Shown here: positions 4,866 through 18,180 of the stretch, piece by piece | How the letters are laid out: each line of letters starts with the position of its first letter | Position numbering within the stretch: the stretch's first letter is position 1 | Assembly: GCF_036208045.1 (NCBI RefSeq) | Contig: NZ_CP121472.1 | Coordinates: 4,909,531 to 4,973,530, forward strand | Source: Thiorhodovibrio winogradskyi | Lineage (GTDB): Bacteria > Pseudomonadota > Gammaproteobacteria > Chromatiales > Chromatiaceae | Direction of reading: 5' to 3' | DNA length: 64,000 nt | Notes under the pieces: model-generated | The model's database searches: none | What the model was told of the DNA's origin: nothing | Seen by the model: the letters and a program-made list of their open reading frames with translations, nothing else | Translations under genes and position numbers: made by a program

Positions 4866-5639
4866 TCAGTCCTCCTTGGGTTTATCCTCGGTCTGAACCG
4901 AATCGAAGAGATCGGCCAGCTCCTCGGTTTCGTCCTCTTCGTTGTTGGAGAAAATCAGAGGTTCCTCATTGTCGTCTTCCGAGGCACTGTCCTCTGCCGG
5001 CGCGTCAAGATCTTCGAAATTCATTTCGCCTTCCCGTGGCTCTGAAGATAGGATGTCGTTGATCTGATCTTCCAGACTCCCTTCATCCTCGGAGTCTTCG
5101 ATCACTGGGGTGGCCGCGCTCCCGTCATCCTGGTGCTGGAATTTATGAAAGGTGGCGTCGTACTCCTCCAGCAGGCGTTCGATAATCTCCTTGTTGTGCT
5201 GAAGCTGCTGGCTCAGTTCACTGTTCTCCGCCTGGAGGTTACCCATGGCCGCGCTCTCCTCGTTTGCGCTCTGCTGCAACTCCGCCCAGGGAGTGAGCAC
5301 CTTACGCAATTCGTCAGGGATGTCAGCGAGGGATTTGCCGTCCTGGTTGAGGTAGATGTTGAGCATCGCATCGTAGAAAGCCTGTTCGCGCGCCAAAAAC
5401 TGATCGACCGTGGTGGTGAGCTTGCGGCCCTTCAGCTGTGCATTGGCCTGAAACAAATTGGTCAGACTTTCACGACGCGAAGGCATTTCATTCTGCACGG
5501 ACCGCTGCAATTCAGAGCTCTGGGTTTGCTGGCTCTGGGCGGCTTGGCGCTGGCGCCGGCGCACGATGAACAGAATGACCGCCGCGGCTAGGGCAAACTC
5601 AGCGGACATGATCAGGCTGGCAAGCTCGAGCGTTGTCAT
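4866..5639 (-). CDS. Acidic protein with N-terminal membrane anchor (unknown function)
   Basis: I do not recognise this 257-aa family. One hydrophobic segment is near the N-terminus (about residues 7-26, SLIMSAEFALAAAVILFIVR), followed by a basic RRRQRQ stop-transfer stretch, so the bulk should be cytoplasmic. The middle contains a coiled-coil-like region (about 105-160, including ENSELSQQLQHNKEIIERLL). The last 90 residues are extremely acidic. It is the last gene of a four-gene minus-strand cluster, 46 bp after the von Willebrand A gene. Membership suggests it works with that signalling and VWA module, perhaps as a membrane scaffold; this is inference. Confidence 0.75.
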   Translation of the reverse strand: MTTLELASLIMSAEFALAAAVILFIVRRRQRQAAQSQQTQSSELQRSVQNEMPSRRESLTNLFQANAQLKGRKLTTTVDQFLAREQAFYDAMLNIYLNQDGKSLADIPDELRKVLTPWAELQQSANEESAAMGNLQAENSELSQQLQHNKEIIERLLEEYDATFHKFQHQDDGSAATPVIEDSEDEGSLEDQINDILSSEPREGEMNFEDLDAPAEDSASEDDNEEPLIFSNNEEDETEELADLFDSVQTEDKPKED

Positions 5640-5685
5640 CCTGTTGGCATCCTCCTGATCGTTTGTGGGTTGTGTTGTCGCCAGG

Positions 5686-7587
5686 TCATTCCGCGTCCTC
5701 CTTGCCCTTTCTCTTTTTATTCCTGCTGGCCTTGTTGGATGTCTTGGCTTTCTTGGTCTTTGCGGCGGCGGGCTTGTCGGAAGGTGCGCGGGTGATCATC
5801 AACACGAGGGTCATCAGCAGGGCGAAGGCCAGGGTTCCACCACCGACCACGGCCGCGAGCAGGGTCCAGGAAATGTTTGCCTCGTCGTTGGTGTCAGGGG
5901 GATCCTGTTGTTGTCCGTCGGCGAAATCGAAGACGAAAGTCTCCTCTGGGGGCTCAAGCAGCAGGGGCTCACCGGCGACTGTTTCAGCTTTCAGGCGCGC
6001 GTTGGCGCGATAGGTGCCTGCACGGGTAATCGGAAGATCGTAGATTGCCGAGCTGTTGGTCAGGGCGTTGAACTCAAGCACAGCTTCGGAGCCCTTGGGA
6101 CCGGTCAGGCGCAGATAGCCGAAGAGACTGCCGGGACGAATGAGGTCCGACTCGAATTGCAGACGAACATCCAAGCGGGCTTCCCCGGTTTGGCCTTCCG
6201 GGGGCATCTGGGGTTCATAAAGGAGCTTCAGGGGCGTGCCTATTACACGCAGGCTGCGGGTGAGCTGCCTCTTGAAGGTCGCGCTCTCAAGCAGAACTTG
6301 AAGTCTGTAAGTGCCGGTCTCGAGAGTGCCAGCCGCGACTTCCATCCGATAACTTTGGGATGCCTGGTCAAGTGGTAGGATCAGTGATAGGGCGGGGATG
6401 TTTGCAGCCTCGGATGTGGACGCGGAGAGACCAGGATCAGCGGCGTTCAGCGCTGGAGCCGGCGCTTCGGCATCCCCGGCACCAAGATCGAAAACGACTT
6501 TGGCGGTCGCCAGCTCAAGGAAGTCCAGAATCTTGATCGGGGCGCCTTTTTCCGTTGGCCAGACGTCGAGAATAAAACTCGCCTGGGCGGGAATAGTGTT
6601 TGGTAAGGGCTCCATGGCCAGGTTGAGGTCAGTCAGGACCGCAACTCGATTATCCGGATCCAGGCTGCCCTGCAGTTCCCACTCGCCGGATGAAGGAGCG
6701 GTGATTGTGACCAGATCGTAATCCAACGCGTCGTTCCAGCTGATCTTGGTTTTTCCATCCAGTGGAATACGCCCGGCGGTGATGGTCTCACCTGTTGGAG
6801 TGATCAGGGAAACAGGTGAGCCTGGGGCGCGGAAAGCCAAGAGTGTAAACTCGCGTACGCCCGAGTCAATCGTGAAACGATTACCTTCGATTGGAACTGT
6901 GGTGGGAGCGGCGGATTGCTCAAGCATGCGCAGGAAGGCGCGCTGCAGGGCCGCGGCGTTGTCGGCCACCTCGAGCCAGCCTCCAGTTTGCGCGGTGAGC
7001 GCCTCGACCAGTGCCGCGTCGACCTGATCGGACAAGGCCACCACATGGGTTTTTACCTTGAGGTTTTGCAACCGGGCAATGGTGGTGTCCATGATGCGCC
7101 GGCGCGAGGCGGCATCACTATCTTCACCAGAGGCATCTGGCTCGCCGTCGGGGACATCGACCAGGCCATCGGTGAGCAGGACCAAATGACGCTCTTGATT
7201 GGCCGCGGGCGGCTCGGACCAGCCCTCAAGCGCGGTATTGATGGCTGCCTCGATATCGGTGAAATTGCCGTTGGAGTGGATGCGTCGCAGGCGGCCGCGG
7301 GTCTGTGCCTTCCAGGCATCATCGACCGTGCCAGAAGCAACCAATGGCTCGGGGCGATTTGCGAACAGCCACACTCCAGCCTTGCTACCACCCGGCAGCA
7401 ACTCGCTGACCAGTCGCAGCGCGGGCACGCGCAGATTTTGCGGATCGTTTTCCCGCATGCTGCCAGAGACATCAATCAGGAAGCGCAAATCGCTGCTGGC
7501 TTGCAGCTCGGAAGCGGTTGTCAGCATAACTAGGCTGACAGCGACGATGCCGAAGGCGAGGCTCCTGAAGCGAAATAATCGAGGCAT
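5686..7587 (-). CDS. Secreted/membrane von Willebrand factor A domain protein (TIGR03503-like)
   Basis: The product (633 aa) has an N-terminal signal peptide (residues 1-30, basic MPRLFRFRS then a hydrophobic core). A VWA domain follows with the metal-binding MIDAS motif DVSGSM at about residue 39 and a conserved LTDGLVD near 140. After this come Ig-like/beta-rich regions (about 235-540), a transmembrane helix (about 572-600) and a very basic Lys-rich cytoplasmic tail. The layout resembles the gammaproteobacterial TIGR03503 family of VWA proteins; that match is from memory and moderately certain. The VWA domain would face the periplasm and bind a protein partner through a divalent cation. It is 38 bp downstream of a histidine kinase gene, apparently in one operon. 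Confidence 0.85.
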   Translation of the reverse strand: MPRLFRFRSLAFGIVAVSLVMLTTASELQASSDLRFLIDVSGSMRENDPQNLRVPALRLVSELLPGGSKAGVWLFANRPEPLVASGTVDDAWKAQTRGRLRRIHSNGNFTDIEAAINTALEGWSEPPAANQERHLVLLTDGLVDVPDGEPDASGEDSDAASRRRIMDTTIARLQNLKVKTHVVALSDQVDAALVEALTAQTGGWLEVADNAAALQRAFLRMLEQSAAPTTVPIEGNRFTIDSGVREFTLLAFRAPGSPVSLITPTGETITAGRIPLDGKTKISWNDALDYDLVTITAPSSGEWELQGSLDPDNRVAVLTDLNLAMEPLPNTIPAQASFILDVWPTEKGAPIKILDFLELATAKVVFDLGAGDAEAPAPALNAADPGLSASTSEAANIPALSLILPLDQASQSYRMEVAAGTLETGTYRLQVLLESATFKRQLTRSLRVIGTPLKLLYEPQMPPEGQTGEARLDVRLQFESDLIRPGSLFGYLRLTGPKGSEAVLEFNALTNSSAIYDLPITRAGTYRANARLKAETVAGEPLLLEPPEETFVFDFADGQQQDPPDTNDEANISWTLLAAVVGGGTLAFALLMTLVLMITRAPSDKPAAAKTKKAKTSNKASRNKKRKGKEDAE

Positions 7588-7625
7588 GACGGAAATTGTC
7601 CGGACGGTTCGGTGTTTGTGCTGGT

Positions 7626-8309
7626 CTAAGGCAACCAGAGTTCGAAACAGCCGCCGGGCAGGTTGCAGCCGTTCCTGACCTCAATGTGCCCTTTGCGTTC
7701 GCCAGAGCGGTGCAAGTCGCTAATCTTTTCCGCAAACAGCAAGCCTAGCCGGGTGCGGCCCGAGGCTCGCGGATTGCCCATCAGGAGTTGCTCGTTGGTG
7801 CCGCCGCGGTGGAGCAGCTCAGACGGGAAGCCCCGGCCGTCGTCCTCAATGCGGATCACCAGAAAGCCCGATTCCTCGCGTGCGGAAAGATGAATATTTT
7901 TACCCGCGTAACGTCTAGCATTGCCAATGGTGCTGTCGATGACGCTGCGAACCATTTCCAGATCAAAAAAACCGCTCAGCATGGGATCGCATTCATAGCT
8001 GAGCTCGATACCCAATGCGTGACAAACGGCTTGATTGTTCGCCATGCACTCGAGGAAAAGCTCCTCGAGATTATGCTCGTCGACATCGACCGTCAGGCCG
8101 TCATCGCCAAGCTTGTACAGCGACAGCAATTGCACCAGATTATGGTTCACGCGCTGTACTTCATGCTGGAGCAGGCTCGCCTGTCGCGGATCGGCAAAGG
8201 TGTTTTCCTCGTTGCCTATCATCTCGGCGAGGGTGGTCGATATCAGGCTCAAGGAGTTCTTGATGTCATGAATTGAGGACGCGAGCATGTCGGAAAAATC
8301 CATCGCCAT
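7626..8309 (-). CDS. Small soluble sensor histidine kinase
   Basis: The 227-aa protein consists of little more than a kinase core. The phosphoacceptor region is SSIHDIKNSLSLIS (His at about residue 14). The HATPase domain shows an N-box-like VRSVIDSTIGNARRYAG, the G1 box IEDDGRGFP and a G2-like RLGLLFAEKI. There is no membrane segment and no sensor domain, so input probably comes from a partner protein. The gene begins 13 bp after the receiver-TPR gene ends, so the two are very likely a cognate pair. Family knowledge: ATP-dependent autophosphorylation on His with transfer to a receiver Asp. Confidence 0.85.
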   Translation of the reverse strand: MAMDFSDMLASSIHDIKNSLSLISTTLAEMIGNEENTFADPRQASLLQHEVQRVNHNLVQLLSLYKLGDDGLTVDVDEHNLEELFLECMANNQAVCHALGIELSYECDPMLSGFFDLEMVRSVIDSTIGNARRYAGKNIHLSAREESGFLVIRIEDDGRGFPSELLHRGGTNEQLLMGNPRASGRTRLGLLFAEKISDLHRSGERKGHIEVRNGCNLPGGCFELWLP

Positions 8310-8322
8310 AGTGAACTCTCAC

Positions 8323-9933
8323 TTACCTTGTCATCAACCGCTGGAGGCGCGCAGAGATGTCGGTCAGACGCCAGTCATCAGGCGCCGCGGCACGGACATG
8401 CTCGACATAACCGCGAACCAAACGGATGTCTTCTGCCTGTGCGCCTTTCTGTTCGATTTTCATGATGATCGCCTTGGCCACATTGAGATTCAAGGTTTTG
8501 TTGCCAGGCATTTCATCGGCGGCCTTGCGCAACAGTTTGATGGCGGCGTCATATTCGCCCTGTTTAATCATGCGGACACCGGCATTGTTAACCTTGATGA
8601 TCTCCGCCTGGACTTTTTGGATGCTCTTGTCGGCGGCCTCGGCCATGCCAGCGCTCTTGCAGACTTGCTTGACCTGCGCGAGAAAAGCATCGTCATCATG
8701 ATTGTTAGCGATGGAACTCTGTAGCATGGCCTCTGCTTTGTCTTGTCGGCCGATTTTTACGTAGGCTTTAACCATCTCCAAACCAAGCTCGGAAGCTTGG
8801 GCCCCGCTGGCTTCTTCCATGGCTTTCTCGGCGATTGCCAGGGCCGCGGCAGCCTCTTTGAGTTTGCCTTGGTTGGCCTTGATCATGGCGTCAGCCGTTG
8901 CCTGAAAGAACTCAACTTCTTCATGATCGGAAAAATTGCGTCCAAGTTCGCTGACCACCTTGATAGCCTCAGTGTGTCGACCATTCGCGGTGAGTGACTT
9001 GGCCAAACCACTGTGGATGGAAGGATGGTTGTATCGGGAATACTTGGCCAGATTCACCGCGCGACCAAAAGCCTTTTCCGCTGTCTCGGTATTGCCAATG
9101 TTTAAGGCGACCTTGCCGAGTTTGATCTGACGCTTCAGTCCGCGGGGCGATAGCTGTGCGGCCTGTTCCAGCACCTTCTCGGACTCTTCCACCCGGCCCT
9201 GTGCCATTAGGGTGTTGGCCAGGACGTCGTAGGCTTGAATCATGTTGCGATCCGCGCTAATGAGCGCTCGCAGGGTGGATTCTGCCTGGGTATAGTTTTT
9301 TCTTAACAGTTGAACTCTGCCCGAGCCCAGTCGCGCCCAGCGGATGTCCCGGTCATTGAGAACACTTTGATAAACTTTAAGCGCATCCTCTAGCTGGTTG
9401 CTGCTAATCAAGGCTTCAGCCTTGATTTTGAGAAGTTCCAGGCGGTTTTTCGGCTCGTTGGCCAAAAGCGTGTTGATTTCATTGATGGCTTTCGTGTAAT
9501 CCTTGGCAGTCAACGCTTGATTCACCCCTGATAGCTGCGCCTTCTGCTGAAGGAGCTTTTCAAGCCGGGTTCTCAGGAGTTCGGAGGTAAAGGGCTTGGT
9601 CAGATAACTGTCGGGCACATATTCGATTGCAGCCATCACCATCTCGCGGGTGTTTTCCGCTGTCAGCATCACGTAAATGGTATCGACACCAATCAGGCCA
9701 AGCTCACGCGCCTCTTCCAGGATCTGCTGACCGTCCTTGCCTTCGCCCAGGTTGTAATCGCACAGGATGATATCGGGCCGGCGCTTCTGCAGGATGGCCA
9801 GCGCCTCGTTGCCCGTCGCGGCCAGGTCAAAGTTAGTGACCCCCAGAGATCGCAGAATGCCTCGCAGTACCGAGCGCATGTCAGCGAAATCATCGACCAC
9901 AAGAAAATGCTTTTGACTAAGGGTTGGTGCCAT
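8323..9933 (-). CDS. Response regulator receiver domain fused to TPR repeats
   Basis: A 536-aa protein with an N-terminal CheY-like receiver domain (about residues 8-130): acidic pair VVDDFADMR, phosphoacceptor Asp in IILCDYNLGEG, conserved Thr/Ser near VMLTAENT and Lys in LTKPFTSE. The remaining 400 residues are helical with repeated TPR-like units (for example YTKAINEINTLLANEPKN, NYTQAESTLRALISADRN, GRVEESEKVLEQAAQLSP). There is no DNA-binding or enzymatic output domain, so the output should be a protein interaction. It is the first gene of the four-gene cluster kinase-VWA-acidic protein. The architecture recalls VieB-like regulators, but I do not claim orthology. Confidence 0.9.
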   Translation of the reverse strand: MAPTLSQKHFLVVDDFADMRSVLRGILRSLGVTNFDLAATGNEALAILQKRRPDIILCDYNLGEGKDGQQILEEARELGLIGVDTIYVMLTAENTREMVMAAIEYVPDSYLTKPFTSELLRTRLEKLLQQKAQLSGVNQALTAKDYTKAINEINTLLANEPKNRLELLKIKAEALISSNQLEDALKVYQSVLNDRDIRWARLGSGRVQLLRKNYTQAESTLRALISADRNMIQAYDVLANTLMAQGRVEESEKVLEQAAQLSPRGLKRQIKLGKVALNIGNTETAEKAFGRAVNLAKYSRYNHPSIHSGLAKSLTANGRHTEAIKVVSELGRNFSDHEEVEFFQATADAMIKANQGKLKEAAAALAIAEKAMEEASGAQASELGLEMVKAYVKIGRQDKAEAMLQSSIANNHDDDAFLAQVKQVCKSAGMAEAADKSIQKVQAEIIKVNNAGVRMIKQGEYDAAIKLLRKAADEMPGNKTLNLNVAKAIIMKIEQKGAQAEDIRLVRGYVEHVRAAAPDDWRLTDISARLQRLMTR

Positions 9934-10037: not shown

Positions 10038-10290
10038 CCGTAGCGCGAGCCAGAATCCCTTTACTGGGCAGATCTTGTTCCAATTGTATTCGCCTGGCTT
10101 GCGCCTTGCGTGTACATAGACGTTTTTGACAAAAACCAAACCGATGTGAAGGTGCGCGAAAATGACCCAAGGCAGGCCATGTTGCAGATAGTTTAACGAT
10201 TTCCTCTTGGTTCGTGGCCTGGTTGAATGCTTGGGTTTGGCCCGCATGCTCGCATCATAGAGGATTGGAAATTAACAAGAGGACATGCCG

Positions 10291-11676
10291 ATGACTAGGG
10301 GATTCAAAACCCGATATCCTGCTTCCAGGGACGGCAGAGGACTGTTAGCTCGGATCGCCTTGCCGGGCGGCGGCCTCCTCTTGGGCGCCACGCTCTTGGT
10401 TTCGGGACTCATCTTCGCGCAATCGCCGGGGAAAACCTTGCCCGTGGCTGAACCCGTGGCTGAAAAGGCTGAACAAATTACCCTGGGCATGGGCTGCTTC
10501 TGGGGTGCCGAGAAACGCATGTCCGAGCTGCCTGGTGTCATCGATGTTGTCAGCGGCTTCGCCGGTGGCGAGCGGTCCAACCCAAGTTATCGGCAAATAT
10601 TGGCCGATGAACGACGCGGGAGGCAGAAAAATCATGCCGAGGTGGTTCGGGTGACCTTCGACACGGGCCAAACCAGTCTTGAGCGGGTTTTGGCGGGGTT
10701 TTGGGAACACCATGATCCAACTCAGGGCAACCGTCAAGGCAATGATATTGGCTCGAATTATCGCAGCGCCATCTATTTCGTCACGCCCGCGCAGGAAGCT
10801 GTCGCGCAGCGCACCAAAGCGCGGTATCAGCTTGCCTTGAGCGCGGCCGGTTACGGTGCCATTACCACCGAGATCCGGCCGCTTGCAACCTTTTATCCCG
10901 CCGAGGAAGAGCATCAGGACTACCTCAGAAAGAATCCCGATGGCTACTGCGGTCTCGGCGGTACGGGCATCCGCTATCCCATGGAGACCGGGGCCGCTGC
11001 GGAGGCGACGGTCGAACCTAAGCAGGGCGAGCCGCCTCTGAGTGGCGGCGATCTAGAGGCCGAACGCCAACTGATCGTTTTCGAGGCCGAGGGTTGTGGC
11101 TACTGCGCGCTTTTTCAGACAGAGGTGCTTGCCCACTGGGAGTCTCCGGTGCCCGTGCGCAGCACCCGGTCCGCCCGGCCGCCAACTGGTTGGAAACTGG
11201 CTGAACCGCTTTGGGCTACCCCCACCATGGTGCTGTTCGAGAATGGCCATGAAAGAGCACGCTATACCGGCTATAGTGGCGATGCCGCCGGCTTTTGGCG
11301 TTGGCTCGCGCAGCTGACTCTCAGCCCGGAGACATTTGACATTGCCTACGCGCAAGCCACCGAGGCGCCCTATACCGGTGCGCTGCTCGACAACCGCCGC
11401 CCCGGTACTTACGTGGACCCGGTGACTGGCGTCGCGCTGTTTCGCAGCGATGCCAAGTACAAAAGCGGTACCGGGTGGCCGAGTTTTTTTCAGCCTATTG
11501 ATGGGGCGGTGACCATGCATCAGGATTCCAGCCACGGCATGCGCCGTGTCGAGGTACGGAGCGCCAGCTCTGGTATCCACCTGGGTCATGTGTTTGATGA
11601 TGGCCCGCCACCTACGGGGAAACGCTATTGCATCAATAGCGGTGTGCTGCGCTTTGTGCCCGACCAAGAACTGTAG
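10291..11676 (+). CDS. msrAB: MsrA - thioredoxin-like - MsrB fusion, membrane-anchored methionine sulfoxide reductase
   Basis: This multidomain enzyme repairs both methionine sulfoxide stereoisomers. An N-terminal hydrophobic segment (about residues 19-44) should anchor or export it, so it probably acts in the periplasm. MsrA follows with catalytic GCFWGAEK (Cys near residue 69) and the family EHHDPTQGNRQGNDIGSNYR. A short thioredoxin-like segment with a CGYC redox motif sits at about 265-345. MsrB comes last with SGTGWPSFF, GIHLGHVF and the catalytic RYCINSGVLRF. The two CxxC zinc-binding pairs of many MsrBs are absent, so this is a zinc-free type. The ATG at 10291 is chosen because AGAGGA lies 7 bases upstream; the ATG at 10285 would be too close. 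PilB-type fusions place the thioredoxin domain first; here it lies between the Msr domains. Confidence 0.92.
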   Translation: MTRGFKTRYPASRDGRGLLARIALPGGGLLLGATLLVSGLIFAQSPGKTLPVAEPVAEKAEQITLGMGCFWGAEKRMSELPGVIDVVSGFAGGERSNPSYRQILADERRGRQKNHAEVVRVTFDTGQTSLERVLAGFWEHHDPTQGNRQGNDIGSNYRSAIYFVTPAQEAVAQRTKARYQLALSAAGYGAITTEIRPLATFYPAEEEHQDYLRKNPDGYCGLGGTGIRYPMETGAAAEATVEPKQGEPPLSGGDLEAERQLIVFEAEGCGYCALFQTEVLAHWESPVPVRSTRSARPPTGWKLAEPLWATPTMVLFENGHERARYTGYSGDAAGFWRWLAQLTLSPETFDIAYAQATEAPYTGALLDNRRPGTYVDPVTGVALFRSDAKYKSGTGWPSFFQPIDGAVTMHQDSSHGMRRVEVRSASSGIHLGHVFDDGPPPTGKRYCINSGVLRFVPDQEL

Positions 11677-11828
11677 CAACCTCCTGCCAAAACCGGGCGC
11701 GATGAGATACGCTAAGACGTTCGCAGCCTAGGAGTCAGTTGCATTCTACTGGCTGCGTTCATATCAGTCATTCTCATCAAATCATCGGTGCCGGCTGTTC
11801 TGGGCGCCGTTTAGCGAAGGTTCCCGCA

Positions 11829-12053
11829 ATGCCCAAACATCGTATCGGCTGCAAGACCATGCACGACGCCGTCGTGGTTGGCAGCATTTTCATGGCCGCC
11901 GGCGTCATTATGATGGTTGTCGGCAAGACGCTGGTGCCCCAGGTTGCTTTTCTGGATATTCTTGTACAGGTACTTGGTGGTCTCTTGTTGCTTTTTGTGC
12001 CCTTTATTCTGATCGCAACCTTCTTGCGTACCTCGGCGGAGCGCAATGAGTAA
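11829..12053 (+). CDS. Small two-helix membrane protein
   Basis: A 74-aa protein starting MPKHRIGCKTMHDAVVVG. It contains two hydrophobic helices (about residues 14-34, VVVGSIFMAAGVIMMVVG, and 42-66, ILVQVLGGLLLLFVPFILIA). No family is recognised. The ATG at 11829 follows a GAAGG-like site; a longer frame upstream has no good initiation signal. It is downstream of the msrAB fusion by about 150 bp and converges with the porin gene. Confidence 0.6.
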   Translation: MPKHRIGCKTMHDAVVVGSIFMAAGVIMMVVGKTLVPQVAFLDILVQVLGGLLLLFVPFILIATFLRTSAERNE

Positions 12054-12080
12054 CATGATCCGCGCTCGTGAACCTCACGC

Positions 12081-12132
12081 CTTCAACGCCGGATGGGCGC
12101 GCTTGCTCCGAGGTTGTTGAAGCCGCCCATCC
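12081..12132. terminator. Interlocked inverted repeats between convergent genes
   Basis: GGATGGGCG (12091-12099) pairs perfectly with CGCCCATCC (12124-12132), and CTTCAAC (12081-12087) pairs with GTTGAAG (12116-12122). The order is A-B-A'-B', so the two helices would interlock as a pseudoknot or be mutually exclusive. It lies between two convergent genes, where a bidirectional terminator is expected. There is no clear U-tract. Confidence 0.35.
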
Positions 12133-12156
12133 CTGGCGGCATCGGGTGAGCGGATT

Positions 12157-13623
12157 TTAAAAGTAATAGCCGAAATTGATATTGAAGCGATAGTTCCAGT
12201 GGTCGTTGGCATTGACGCCGAAGTCGCCCGCGCCCAGAGTCGGTGAGTAGATGTTGCTATAGGCTTCGGCATTGCCATCCTTGTTCTCGCTACCGACAAA
12301 GTAATTGCCGTCGGAGAAGGCAAGATCGGTGTAGATGTACCAGTTTCGACGTGCCCAGGCGGCTCCCAGAGTGACCAGTTGGCTGTCGTTGAAGTGACTG
12401 CCTTCCTTCACGATGCTGCTGTACTCGACATAGGGACGGACGTAATCGAGCCAGGGGATGTGACCCGTGGTGTGCTTGTAGCTTAGTGAAATTGCCGGTA
12501 TCCAGGCATCGCTCGCCACCGGCCAGGCGAAGTCATAGGCGCCCATGGGAACCAATTCGTCGGTGCCAAGCAGGTTGCTATTGTCAACATGGATCCGATA
12601 ACGGGTGATTTGGCTTGCCAGCAGCCAGTTCTTCCAACTGTTGGTCATATGCGCGGATGCCGCCCAATGGTGACCGTCATCGGCGCGCCGGCCTTTGATC
12701 TGTCCGTATTGCAGTGAAACGCCGATCTTGGTAGCGACGGCGCCCTCAATACCATAGATGGCGCGAATATTGAATTGATTGCGTTCTTCATACCCGTTTG
12801 GTGATGCACTGATCACATCGCCCTTGAGGTCGATGGCCGAGTCCCAGGTCAGGATGTCATAGCTGTAGCGCGCGCTATCCTGGCTGGTGCCGTTGCCATT
12901 CCATTCACTGCGCGCATAGTAGGCAAGATCCAGCGCCCAATCACCCAGGCTGGTACTGTATTTGATGCCGAGATCCATGTCATCGCTCAGACCAACGTAG
13001 TAGTGCTGGTCGAAAAACCAACTCTGAGAGACGCCATAAGGGCCGGGACCGAAGGGTACGCGGTTCACGCCCACTTGCACCTGACTGCCGTCGTCGAAAT
13101 CCCATCCAAGCCAGCCGGTGTGCAAAAAGTTGTAGCCGTCATACCAGCGGTATTCAAGCTTTCCGACCAACTGGTTGTATTTCAAATCCATGTTGATACG
13201 GAAAGTGTCCAGCGTCATGTTGCCCGCATTGCCGCCGCGCGACGGACCGTCACCGCCGCCAGGGTAGCTGCCAAGAGTGTAGTTAGCGCGAATGGCCCCC
13301 CCGACCGTCAAGGGTCCCAGGGTGATCTTCTCGGCCGGCGCCGGCGTTGCAGTCGCTGTTGGGCTTGTTTGGATCGCGGCCAGTTCGGCTTGCGCCTCGG
13401 TAGCCTCGCTGGTGGCGGCTGACAGGGCTTGCTGGGCCTCGGCAAGTTGGCGCTGCAACTCGGCAACGCGTCGCTCAAGCTCGGCGGTGGAGGTGCTGGC
13501 GAGGGCGCCAGTGGCGGTAAGCAGCAGCGTCAGGCCGGTCGCGCCCAAGGCTAGTTGCTGCCGGGAGCGGCGGCCCACCATGGGCACTGCCGGGGTGGCA
13601 GGAGTTTGCAGGAAAAAAGTCAT
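12157..13623 (-). CDS. Outer membrane porin with N-terminal coiled coil
   Basis: The 488-aa product has a signal peptide (hydrophobic LALGATGLTLLLTATGALAS, about residues 24-43). A heptad-rich coiled coil follows (about 45-85, ELERRVAELQRQLAEAQQAL), then a Pro/Thr/Ala linker and a beta-barrel domain from about residue 100. Barrel strands alternate aromatic and polar residues (VGKLEYRWYDGYNFLHTGWL, KNWLLASQITRYRIHVDNSN). The chain ends NYRFNINFGYYF, with the terminal aromatic typical of Bam-assembled barrels. Substrate is unknown; the barrel resembles generic porins rather than a gated transporter. An alternative start is Met15. It is a single gene between convergent neighbours and the ATPase operon. 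Confidence 0.82.
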   Translation of the reverse strand: MTFFLQTPATPAVPMVGRRSRQQLALGATGLTLLLTATGALASTSTAELERRVAELQRQLAEAQQALSAATSEATEAQAELAAIQTSPTATATPAPAEKITLGPLTVGGAIRANYTLGSYPGGGDGPSRGGNAGNMTLDTFRINMDLKYNQLVGKLEYRWYDGYNFLHTGWLGWDFDDGSQVQVGVNRVPFGPGPYGVSQSWFFDQHYYVGLSDDMDLGIKYSTSLGDWALDLAYYARSEWNGNGTSQDSARYSYDILTWDSAIDLKGDVISASPNGYEERNQFNIRAIYGIEGAVATKIGVSLQYGQIKGRRADDGHHWAASAHMTNSWKNWLLASQITRYRIHVDNSNLLGTDELVPMGAYDFAWPVASDAWIPAISLSYKHTTGHIPWLDYVRPYVEYSSIVKEGSHFNDSQLVTLGAAWARRNWYIYTDLAFSDGNYFVGSENKDGNAEAYSNIYSPTLGAGDFGVNANDHWNYRFNINFGYYF

Positions 13624-13718: not shown

Positions 13719-14339
13719 TTAATCCGCTTGCTCGCGCAGAATCTTTACTTGAAACAGGGTGTTGCGCTCTTCTTCCTCGAGTGTCGATTGAATGAAATGC
13801 AGCGTGCGCCGATAGAGCGGGATAATGTTGTATTTGAGAGCGTTCACGCGCTTCTGTGCCTTGCGCTGCTCTTCCATCAGGCGGTGGAGAGCGATTTCCA
13901 CCTCGGCCAGATTGGCCAGCACAGCAGCTGCTTCGGCGAGTTCCCGACAGGTGGCATCGAAGCTGGCATCCGTACCCAACAGCCCAGCCGGCTTCAGGGG
14001 TAGTGGCGAGGCCTGAACCGATGGATATTCCACGCCCAGACTGCGGCGTGGCAATATGTTGACTTCCAGTGCCGGACTCGCCCCAAGCGCGGCTTGGTGC
14101 ATGGCGCGGCTGCCCATGCGCAGATGGGTGATACCAAGAAAGCGATAGGCCTCCTTGAGCTTGGCCTCGGACTCCGCGCGCAAGCGCCTGTATTCGCCAA
14201 TGCGCTCATAAACCAGACGCGTTAAAAGCTCGCGCTTGCGCTCAAGCAGATCATGGCCATCTTCCAGGAACCGGGTCTGCTTTTTGAGTGCAAGCAGAGT
14301 GTTCTTGGTGGGCGGAACCCGGAGAAGTTGTTGAGCCAT
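13719..14339 (-). CDS. atpD: V/A-type ATPase subunit D
   Basis: Subunit D (206 aa) is the long antiparallel coiled-coil rotor shaft inside the A3B3 head. The N-terminus (LLRVPPTKNTLLALKKQTRF, then LERKRELLTRLVYERI) and the C-terminal helix (INTLKYN-like VNALKYNIIPLYRRTLHFIQ) match the family. The protein is helical throughout with a small central beta/loop insertion. It is the last gene of the operon, 4 bp after subunit B ends. Confidence 0.93.
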   Translation of the reverse strand: MAQQLLRVPPTKNTLLALKKQTRFLEDGHDLLERKRELLTRLVYERIGEYRRLRAESEAKLKEAYRFLGITHLRMGSRAMHQAALGASPALEVNILPRRSLGVEYPSVQASPLPLKPAGLLGTDASFDATCRELAEAAAVLANLAEVEIALHRLMEEQRKAQKRVNALKYNIIPLYRRTLHFIQSTLEEEERNTLFQVKILREQAD

Positions 14340-14343
14340 GGTG

Positions 14344-15719
14344 TTAGGCCGAGCCCTGATAGTACTTGGCGACCTCGGTCTCGGACAGGCGCGTGAGCAT
14401 GTCGCGCGGGAACTTGCTCATCAGCTCCCAGGCGAGGTTCAAGGTGGCCTCGATCGAACGGTCTTCGGATTCACCCTGACCGACAAACTGCTTGTCAAAA
14501 TCATCAGCGAATTTCAAATACCGCCGGTCCCGTTCGGAGAGTTCATCGGCGCCGATGATAGAGGCCAGATTACGGGTCTCAAGCGCCCGGGCGTAAAGGG
14601 CGTAGAGTTGCGCGGCGACATGGGGATGATCCTCGCGGGTGTCGTCCTTGCCGATGCCGTCCTTCATCAGACGTGACAGGCTGGGCGAGATGTGCACCGG
14701 TGGGTAGACGCCCTGATTGTGCAGTTCGCGCGAAAGCACGATCTGACCCTCGGTGATGTAGCCGGTCAGGTCAGGAATCGGGTGGGTGATGTCATCCGAG
14801 GGCATGGACACCACCGGCACCATGGTGATGGAGCCGTGGCGATTGTGGATGCGCCCGCAGCGTTCGTAGATCTCGGCCAGATCCGAGTACAGATAACCGG
14901 GATAACCCTTGCGCGCCGGTACATCGCCCTTGGCGGTCGCCACTTCGCGCAGTGCCTCGGCGTAGTAGGTCATGTCGGTCATCACCACCAGAACGTGGCG
15001 GTCAAGTTCGTAGGCGAGATACTCGGCCGCGGTCAGCGCGGTGCGCGGCAAGGTCAGGCGCTCGACCGGCGGGTCGTCGGCAAGATTGACGAACATCACC
15101 ACATTGCGCAGCACGCCAGAGCTGGCAAACTCATCGCGGAAGAACTTGGCGTCGGCGTAGGATACGCCCATGGCCGCGAACACAACCGAGAAGCTTGAGT
15201 CTTCGTCCTTGAGCCTGGCCTGACGCACGATCTGCGCCGCGAGCCGGTTGTGCGGCAGACCAGAACCTGAAAAAATCGGCAGCTTCTGGCCGCGCACCAA
15301 GGAGTTCAGCCCATCAATCGTTGAGATACCGGTCTGGATGAACTCGCGCGGATAGGTGCGCGCCGCCGGATTGATGGCCGAGCCACTCACCGCGCGTCGC
15401 AGGTTTGACAGGACCGGCGGGCGCCCGTCGCGCGGCTCGCCCAAGCCATTGAACTCGCGCCCGAGCAGCTCAGGGGACAAGGCGATTTCCACTGGCTGGT
15501 CGAGAAAGCGCACCCAAATGCCGGATAGGTCCAGATCGTCCGTGCCTTCAAACACCAGAATCAGGACTTCGTCATCCGCCGCCCGAATCACTTGGCCATC
15601 GCGGGTTGCGCCGCGATCATCGGTAATGCGCACCCGATCACCAAAGGCAACCCCGGGGGTGTCGCGCACGACGATCAGTCCGCCGCGCGCTTCGCTGGCA
15701 GTGCGGTATTCCTTGATGC

Positions 15720-15723
<4 letters not shown>
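14344..15723 (-). CDS. atpB: V/A-type ATPase subunit B (non-catalytic)
   Basis: Subunit B (459 aa) is the regulatory nucleotide-binding-like partner of subunit A in the hexameric head. The beta-barrel N-terminus is followed by the degenerate P-loop typical of B subunits (PIFSGSGLPHNRLAAQIVRQ) and by VVFAAMGVSYADAKFFRDEF. Other family blocks are MTDMTYYAEALREVATAKGD and ITMVPVVSMPSDDITHPIPD. The start codon overlaps the stop of subunit A by 4 bp (ATGA), implying translational coupling. Length is normal. Confidence 0.96.
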
Positions 15724-17534
<1,811 letters not shown>

Positions 17535-17538
17535 GGTA

Positions 17539-18180
17539 TCAGCCACCGAAGATGTTGCCGGTATCGAAGCCGCTCGGCAGCAGACGTTCGAGAATGGTCT
17601 GCTGGACGCGGGTGCCAAGGCGCGCGAGTCGGCCCTCGAAAGTATTGTCCACCCGGATGCGTTGATCGGCGCTAACGATCAGCACTCCGGCCAGAGTATC
17701 GATGGGATCGCTCGCGAGGCGCACCGCGGTGCCCTCGGGAAATGCGCCGGTGATGCGCTCCCAGTGTGCCTTGAGTTGCTTGAGGTCGCGTGCATTGGCA
17801 TGGACTTCCAGCTCCTGCTGTTCAATCTCGCGCGCGGCGGTGCTGATGAATCCGCTCAGGGTCTCGAGATAGATGTTTTCATCATCGGCGTGAGCGAGCA
17901 TGCGCTCGGTTAGTCGCGCCTCGACATTGCGCACCAGATTCCAGCGCGTGCGATCGAGGTCGCTCTGCATTTTGAGCTCCTGCGCCTGCACCTGCTGGCG
18001 GAAGCTGCGCTCGCCGAGAGACTTGGCGATACTGTCCTCACGCTCCTCGCGCAGGCGTAGCTTCTCTGCCGCCTCGCGAAGAATGGCATCGCGACTGCGC
18101 TCGCCGCGATCACGGTATTCCCGCGCCAGGCGCTCGGCGCGCGCGAGTATGGCTTGTTCGAGGTCTTGTGCTTGATTCAC
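17539..18180 (-). CDS. atpE: V/A-type ATPase subunit E (peripheral stalk)
   Basis: The 213-aa product has a long charged N-terminal helix (about residues 1-110, for example EQAILARAERLAREYRDRGE) and a compact C-terminal domain ending with TFEGRLARLGTRVQQTILER. This is the layout of the peripheral stalk subunit E, which dimerises with subunit G/H and binds the top of the head. The segment VLIVSADQRIRVDNTFEGRL matches the family C-terminal signature. It sits between the F and A genes as in other bacterial V/A-ATPase operons. Confidence 0.88.
   Translation of the reverse strand: MNQAQDLEQAILARAERLAREYRDRGERSRDAILREAAEKLRLREEREDSIAKSLGERSFRQQVQAQELKMQSDLDRTRWNLVRNVEARLTERMLAHADDENIYLETLSGFISTAAREIEQQELEVHANARDLKQLKAHWERITGAFPEGTAVRLASDPIDTLAGVLIVSADQRIRVDNTFEGRLARLGTRVQQTILERLLPSGFDTGNIFGG

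Follow-up and report, generated by a model that had tools for sequence, protein, structure and literature searches.

The window analyzed here, a stretch of 64,000 nt from Thiorhodovibrio winogradskyi (genome of 5.48 Mb, one contig), contains four co-directed minus-strand ORFs that fill positions 9933 to 4866. The four-gene operon that an initial annotation of this DNA had placed at 4866-9933 is therefore real. Its genes, together with a short motif that is discussed below, are as follows:

8323..9933, minus strand: RR-TPR, 536 aa, a CheY-like receiver followed by TPR repeats only
7626..8309, minus strand: HK, 227 aa, a soluble histidine kinase core
5686..7587, minus strand: VWA protein, 633 aa, related to TIGR03503
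4866..5639, minus strand: ACID, 257 aa, an acidic-tailed membrane protein
4905..4919, minus strand: LADLF motif, ACID residues 241-245, close to the ACID C-terminus

The four genes form an isolated unit: they are separated by small gaps (13, 38 and 46 nt) and flanked by an msrA/B fusion gene upstream, which is divergent, and by trkH downstream, which is convergent. The fusion gene (10285-11676, divergent from the operon) joins MsrA, a thioredoxin-like part and MsrB. Further minus-strand genes at 13719-17618 encode subunits D, B and A of a V/A-type ATPase; the last two were identified from gene size and gene order. The closest named locus (L021) belongs to Rhabdochromatium marinum, with values of 66-76% for the four proteins, which points to a purple sulfur bacterium as the host. 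The VWA gene is single-copy in the host genome, which also encodes a second, shorter RR-TPR of 425 aa with its own HK (L026, 1453-3416; contig C1 near 1198926); no VWA gene was found near it in the 4 kb fetched. A reading of the operon as anti-phage defence was dropped, as PADLOC gave no convincing match (best E-value 0.0022, unrelated).

In Pfam searches, RR-TPR yielded a receiver match (E 6.6e-19) and many TPR matches. The receiver spans residues ~8-130, its key residues are D14, D15, D59, T91 and K113, and its top matches in a PDB search are CheY. The phosphorylation residues are kept in all 41 distinct RR-TPR receivers (D/E at 14, D15, D59, T/S at 91 and K113), and the receiver is followed by TPR repeats alone, in line with the TPR-only output originally described. 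HATPase_c (E 1.1e-8) was the sole Pfam match of HK above cut-off; HisKA was not matched by Pfam and neither a transmembrane nor a sensor domain was found, which bears out the earlier description of a kinase without a sensor. The protein has an H-box (IHDIKNSL, with H14), an N-box and the motifs DDGRGF and GRTRLGL, and residues H14, N130, D157, G158, G160 and G189 are invariant in 20/20 sequences. RR-TPR and HK thus carry the receiver and kinase residues expected of a two-component system, and phosphotransfer between the two is predicted. Vibrio cholerae VC1155 (PMC4441509) was considered and set aside, its identity as an RR-TPR not being established in the accessible text of that source.

The VWA protein matched VWA_2 of Pfam (E 3.6e-10) and, among NCBIfam models, TIGR03503 (E 1.1e-30) with 106.8 bits, which is under the cut-off of 305.6 bits; matches in 77 of the 78 class genomes with TIGR03503 are likewise under it. 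NCBIfam lists TIGR03503 as a hypothetical equivalog, and no paper on it was found in the open-access literature. The best-matching stretch comes after the VWA domain, and the presence of this N-terminal domain ahead of it is a difference from the family. A hydropathy scan revealed hydrophobic segments at 10-28 (N-terminal) and 580-598 (C-terminal), the latter followed by a 35-residue tail of net charge +9, which gives a layout of N-terminal hydrophobic segment, VWA domain, beta-rich domains, C-terminal transmembrane helix and short Lys-rich tail. From these segments, the VWA part is predicted to be periplasmic. The MIDAS residues (DVSGS, T110 and D140) are invariant in 15/15 aligned sequences, and DxSxS is present in 44/48 wider VWA relatives (not in L096, L117, L122 and L132 as called). 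A fold search with a structural model (mean pLDDT 72.7) gave mostly VWA-bearing chains as its leading matches, together with some fibronectin- and Ig-like ones; the VWA alignment gave zero sequence matches to solved structures at E 0.001.

No Pfam or NCBIfam family above cut-off was found for ACID. Hydropathy indicates one segment (8-26), after which the net charge is -35, and the layout comprises an N-terminal transmembrane helix, a conserved helical part up to about residue 173 and a disordered acidic tail; the structural model is helical and partly disordered. The tail is unalignable except for L241-x-D243-L244-F245, kept in 14/14 sequences, and LADLF ends a short helix that is predicted, with low confidence and within the disordered part, at 236-245. 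We propose LADLF as a docking peptide.

It had originally been suggested that the oppositely charged tails of the last two proteins interact in the cytoplasm. The charges are as described in the window (VWA +9, ACID -35) and the acidic tail of ACID is kept in its relatives, but the basic tail of VWA is not: it is marked only in the window and in L022 (+12), with -4 in R. marinum, the nearest relative. The Lys-rich tail of the window protein therefore appears exceptional. Long VWA tails (at least 80 residues), present in 9/40 class loci, are all net acidic (-10 to -86). Taken together, a pathway in which RR-TPR controls contact between a basic tail on VWA and an acidic one on ACID accords with the window charges and is otherwise very improbable. 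Where the VWA tail is long, ACID is short, weakly charged or missing in several loci, as if the acidic segment had been switched between the two partners. The loci with a long acidic tail on VWA and a short or missing ACID are L104, L114, L117, L119, L120, L123 and L128.

Gene order was considered in 23 loci found to have RR-TPR. HK directly follows RR-TPR in 21 of them (L002-L022), L023 is cut within RR-TPR, and L024 has a weak receiver match only. All four genes, with VWA and ACID after RR-TPR and HK, were seen in 13 loci. In one of these, L009, a gene (11360-12703) for a protein with an RRXRR and an HNH domain, the domain pair of IscB-type nucleases, is inserted between VWA and ACID, and ACID follows after 1.6 kb. 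L022 has VWA without ACID, the next gene (5759-6544) encoding an HD-domain protein (HD_5). In L251, the corresponding gene has the same length as in L022 and no transmembrane helix. Neither VWA nor ACID is present in L014-L020, apart from a weak ACID-like ORF (35 bits) after HK in L014.

Order-level searches were made in 210 genomes, all of the window's own family. Using profiles (VWA alignment A2 of 15 sequences; RR-TPR alignment A1 of 14 sequences), VWA was detected in 118 and RR-TPR in 86 of these genomes. With adjacency judged by eye from coordinates, in assemblies of which many are drafts, RR-TPR adjoins VWA in 34/34 family genomes whose VWA exceeds 650 bits (the close form), and the two are on separate contigs or far apart in the other 49 genomes with both. 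Thus, the gene order put forward by the initial annotation is conserved in other genomes, and this conservation exceeds chance. No system of such composition was described in the open-access papers searched, in agreement with what that annotation had stated.

At the class level (274 genomes), RR-TPR was found in 37 genomes, VWA/TIGR03503 in 78 and both in 27, and the two are adjacent in four (the window, G036, G064 and G197). The latter three have the opposite joining order, VWA-(ACID)-RR-TPR-HK, and the existence of two orders suggests that RR-TPR and VWA were joined at least twice. We fetched 40 VWA regions (from the 78 genomes) and 20 RR-TPR regions (from the 37 genomes). HK follows RR-TPR in 21/23 class loci, the exceptions being L149 and L152, the latter with 0.4 kb left on its contig; in L033-L035 (Aeromonas, Vibrio and Photobacterium), which have distant RR-TPR matches, no co-directed HK adjoins. 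In 35/40 class loci (not L096, L104, L114, L124 and L134), the product of the gene after VWA starts with a hydrophobic N-terminal helix, and the charge after the helix is net negative in 32 of these 35. Outside linked loci, the genes occur as two pairs, RR-TPR with HK and VWA with ACID, which are mostly unlinked. This two-module structure, the conserved tail motif and the flagellar link presented below were all missed by the initial annotation.

Both gene pairs track the flagellum, a link that is correlative, and all co-occurrence counts given here ignore phylogeny. FliM is present in 141 and CheZ in 121 of the 210 family genomes. VWA and FliM occur together in 117 genomes, VWA alone in 1, FliM alone in 24 and neither in 68; the sole VWA genome without FliM (G345) is 83% complete and has CheZ. 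The corresponding numbers for VWA and CheZ are 111, 7, 10 and 82, and those for RR-TPR and VWA are 83 (both), 3 (RR-TPR only), 35 (VWA only) and 89 (neither). CheZ, FliM and VWA are all missing from G410 and G254, most congeners of which have them, and G410 keeps a partial RR-TPR match despite these absences. In the class, CheZ is present in 117/274 genomes and, from lists compiled by eye, in 68/78 VWA genomes and 35/37 RR-TPR genomes; when the class is restricted to genomes with CheZ, the association between RR-TPR and VWA is only weak (25 with both, p 0.067). In L099, VWA-ACID lies beside convergent PilZ, MotB and MotA genes, and in L137, RR-TPR-HK comes after cheA, cheB, a ParA-like gene and cheW as assigned by Pfam, which was run on this locus only; the same cheA-to-cheW run precedes RR-TPR-HK in L138 by similarity.

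An alternative is that the operon serves an envelope-stress or surface-adhesion pathway and that flagellar co-occurrence reflects nothing beyond a free-living lifestyle. The accessible text of PMC9210963 deals with VWA domains, such as that of PilY1, in the context of surface sensing. By hand count, however, the 30 FliM-free genomes that measure 4 Mb or more and are at least 90% complete all lack VWA, and genome size is therefore no explanation of the link between VWA and FliM. The type IV pilus protein PilM is present in 201/210 family genomes; being nearly universal, it is a weak control, the pilus does not track VWA, and a type IV pilus link was rejected on this ground.

FliA-type promoters bear on the same alternative. 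Sites were scored with a FliA consensus over up to 150 nt upstream (family) or 300 nt (class). At a threshold of 14.5, picked after the scores were seen, FliA-type sites precede 28/39 unlinked family VWA genes (13/19 in RR-TPR-free and 15/20 in unlinked RR-TPR genomes), compared with 21 of 472 control genes. These controls stem from class loci, and hence from genomes that differ from those of the family loci; the 39 upstream regions were therefore also shuffled, and 11/780 shuffles reached 14.5. Over 300 nt, such sites were found before 19/38 class VWA genes and 9/27 unlinked RR-TPR genes versus 22/300 controls. The positives include L104 and L132, two joined operons with VWA as the first gene. 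Linked loci rarely reach 14.5 (1/20 VWA upstreams and 1/16 RR-TPR upstreams). The window operon itself has no FliA-type site, its best site being at chance level, which would suit an envelope or adhesion role; sigma54 and sigma70 sites before RR-TPR were also at chance. With FliA-type sites before VWA relatives and the large FliM-free genomes against it, we consider such a role unlikely.

The receiver of RR-TPR offers a possible point of contact with the flagellar system. The alpha4-beta5-alpha5 face is the CheY surface for FliM and CheZ, according to the accessible text of PMC3774744. Among the 41 distinct RR-TPR receivers, the residues of this face are kept as V99 in 41, Y/F110 in 41, R123 in 40 and K/R126 in 38, and all four occur together in 38. 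Among the other host receivers, 27 distinct ones from the 30 best Pfam hits, all four are present in one (1/27, or 1/20 of those ungapped there), and its gene lies beside cheZ. The counterpart of CheY K92 is less well kept, with R96 in 20/41 RR-TPR receivers.

A further survey of ACID tails covered 60 family loci, in organisms that partly overlap the earlier set: 20 linked, 20 unlinked RR-TPR-positive and 20 RR-TPR-free. All linked ACID proteins (19/19, as ACID is missing from L251) have L[AST]DLF with its first residue 9-22 positions before the C-terminus, and the motif is present in 0/20 unlinked RR-TPR-positive loci, two of which (L214 and L218) are truncated; L222, one of these loci, has LEDLF far upstream in the tail. 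Some RR-TPR-free loci carry variants only (LAELF, IDELF or IDDLF). The linked genomes look like one clade, judged without a tree, and L[AST]DLF could therefore be due to shared ancestry. In two genomes with unlinked RR-TPR, L231 and L232, the tails have LSDEDIDSLLQG and SSDDIDSLLQG near the end; these are close to the FliM motif, which the accessible text of PMC5677366 gives as LSQxEIDxLL. The C-terminal end of the host CheZ is DDVDALLSSLGF. A reduced-alphabet word scan of 43 tails, with boundaries partly set by hand, had the class of IDALLE as its strongest frequent six-letter word (13 loci versus 1.6 expected), and rare basic words seen 1-2 times reached comparable z-scores. Looser IDxLL-type motifs occur in 13 class genomes, of which 5 have RR-TPR; they are thus present in tails of genomes without RR-TPR (e.g., L102, L129 and L130). 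RR-TPR as a general cause of tail motifs was rejected, since the motifs do not track it across the class.

CheY itself could be the partner of the ACID tail. In a corresponding alternative, VWA-ACID is flagellar and has ordinary CheY (or FliM/CheZ) as its partner, with a tail that acts as a CheY sink at the membrane. RR-TPR-HK would then be a second, independent pair with a flagellar link, simply joined to VWA-ACID in the window's relatives. The 35 of 118 family VWA genomes that have no RR-TPR, the IDxLL-type motifs in RR-TPR-free class genomes and the FliM-like ends in L231 and L232 all fit this arrangement. On the other hand, RR-TPR is rarely without VWA in the family (83/86 with it, and 82/83 within the 141 FliM genomes), and operons that join the two pairs are known in two arrangements. 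We regard a CheY sink as possible and somewhat doubtful.

We instead favor, with a probability of about one half, the reading that the operon encodes a CheY-like branch of phosphosignalling that is linked to the membrane and belongs to the flagellar/chemotaxis network. On this view, two pairs with a flagellar link have been brought together in a single pathway, where a CheY-like switch with TPR output meets a membrane complex that bears VWA. In this branch, VWA and ACID would form an inner-membrane complex, whose periplasmic integrin-like MIDAS head may read a ligand or a mechanical state and whose cytoplasmic acidic tail, on ACID, would display a short docking helix. HK, without a sensor of its own, would set the phosphorylation of RR-TPR, and phospho-RR-TPR may bind the ACID tail via its alpha4-beta5-alpha5 face. 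The TPR array could then recruit or block further partners, so that the proposed output is protein recruitment rather than transcription. Signalling in this direction, and an influence on swimming or on contact with surfaces, are likewise inferred. A more tentative extension is that VWA-ACID might be an integrin-like receptor of the flagellar regulon, with an acidic tail that captures CheY-like proteins by mimicry of the FliM/CheZ peptide, and that RR-TPR and its kinase serve as a dedicated switch in the window's relatives.

The favored branch resembles known systems in part. Like CheY, RR-TPR keeps V99, Y110, R123 and K126, and the tail motifs resemble the FliM N-terminal and CheZ C-terminal peptides; unlike CheY, it has a long TPR output and an adjoining soluble kinase, and the candidate docking peptide sits on a membrane protein. 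Cle proteins are also CheY-like, have no CheA input and act at the flagellar motor, but they are driven by c-di-GMP and bind FliM, whereas RR-TPR keeps phosphorylation residues and has its own kinase. PilY1-type surface sensors share an outward VWA domain linked to signalling; in the accessible text of PMC9210963 PilY1 is discussed with type IV pili, whereas the window-type VWA protein is membrane-anchored beside ACID and tracks flagella rather than pili.

If this reading is true, a widespread undescribed gene pair joins the flagellar regulon of many Gammaproteobacteria (VWA family in 78/274 class genomes), and a periplasmic VWA head couples to CheY-type signalling. It would also suggest a role for response regulators with TPR repeats as sole output, and open to genetic study the route from envelope or surface contact to the flagellar switch; the accessible text of PMC9210963 calls this route unresolved. 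If CheY-like proteins are indeed captured, the envelope could, beside chemoreceptors, talk to the CheY network in flagellated Gammaproteobacteria.

Several minor features were also recorded. Beta-clamp-type peptides (QADMF/QLxLF) have a key Gln, which is missing from LADLF, and this assignment was rejected. A ParA/MinD-type ATPase gene lies directly before VWA in L099 (5573-6364) and L107 (5476-6351), and 16 of the 34 linked family genomes have a second VWA match of 144-183 bits (e.g., G373, G452, G371, G281 and G277). The motif IAEIPxDL[LI] is present in the acidic tails of L098, L104 and L132, the three class genomes with a VWA module adjoining RR-TPR, where ACID carries it in two cases and VWA in the third, and is absent from the other 40 tails scanned. 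Finally, GSLE[DE]EWAKLLEE was observed near the ACID C-terminus in genera g256 and g267 (L204-L207 and L226-L230), with and without a genomic RR-TPR.
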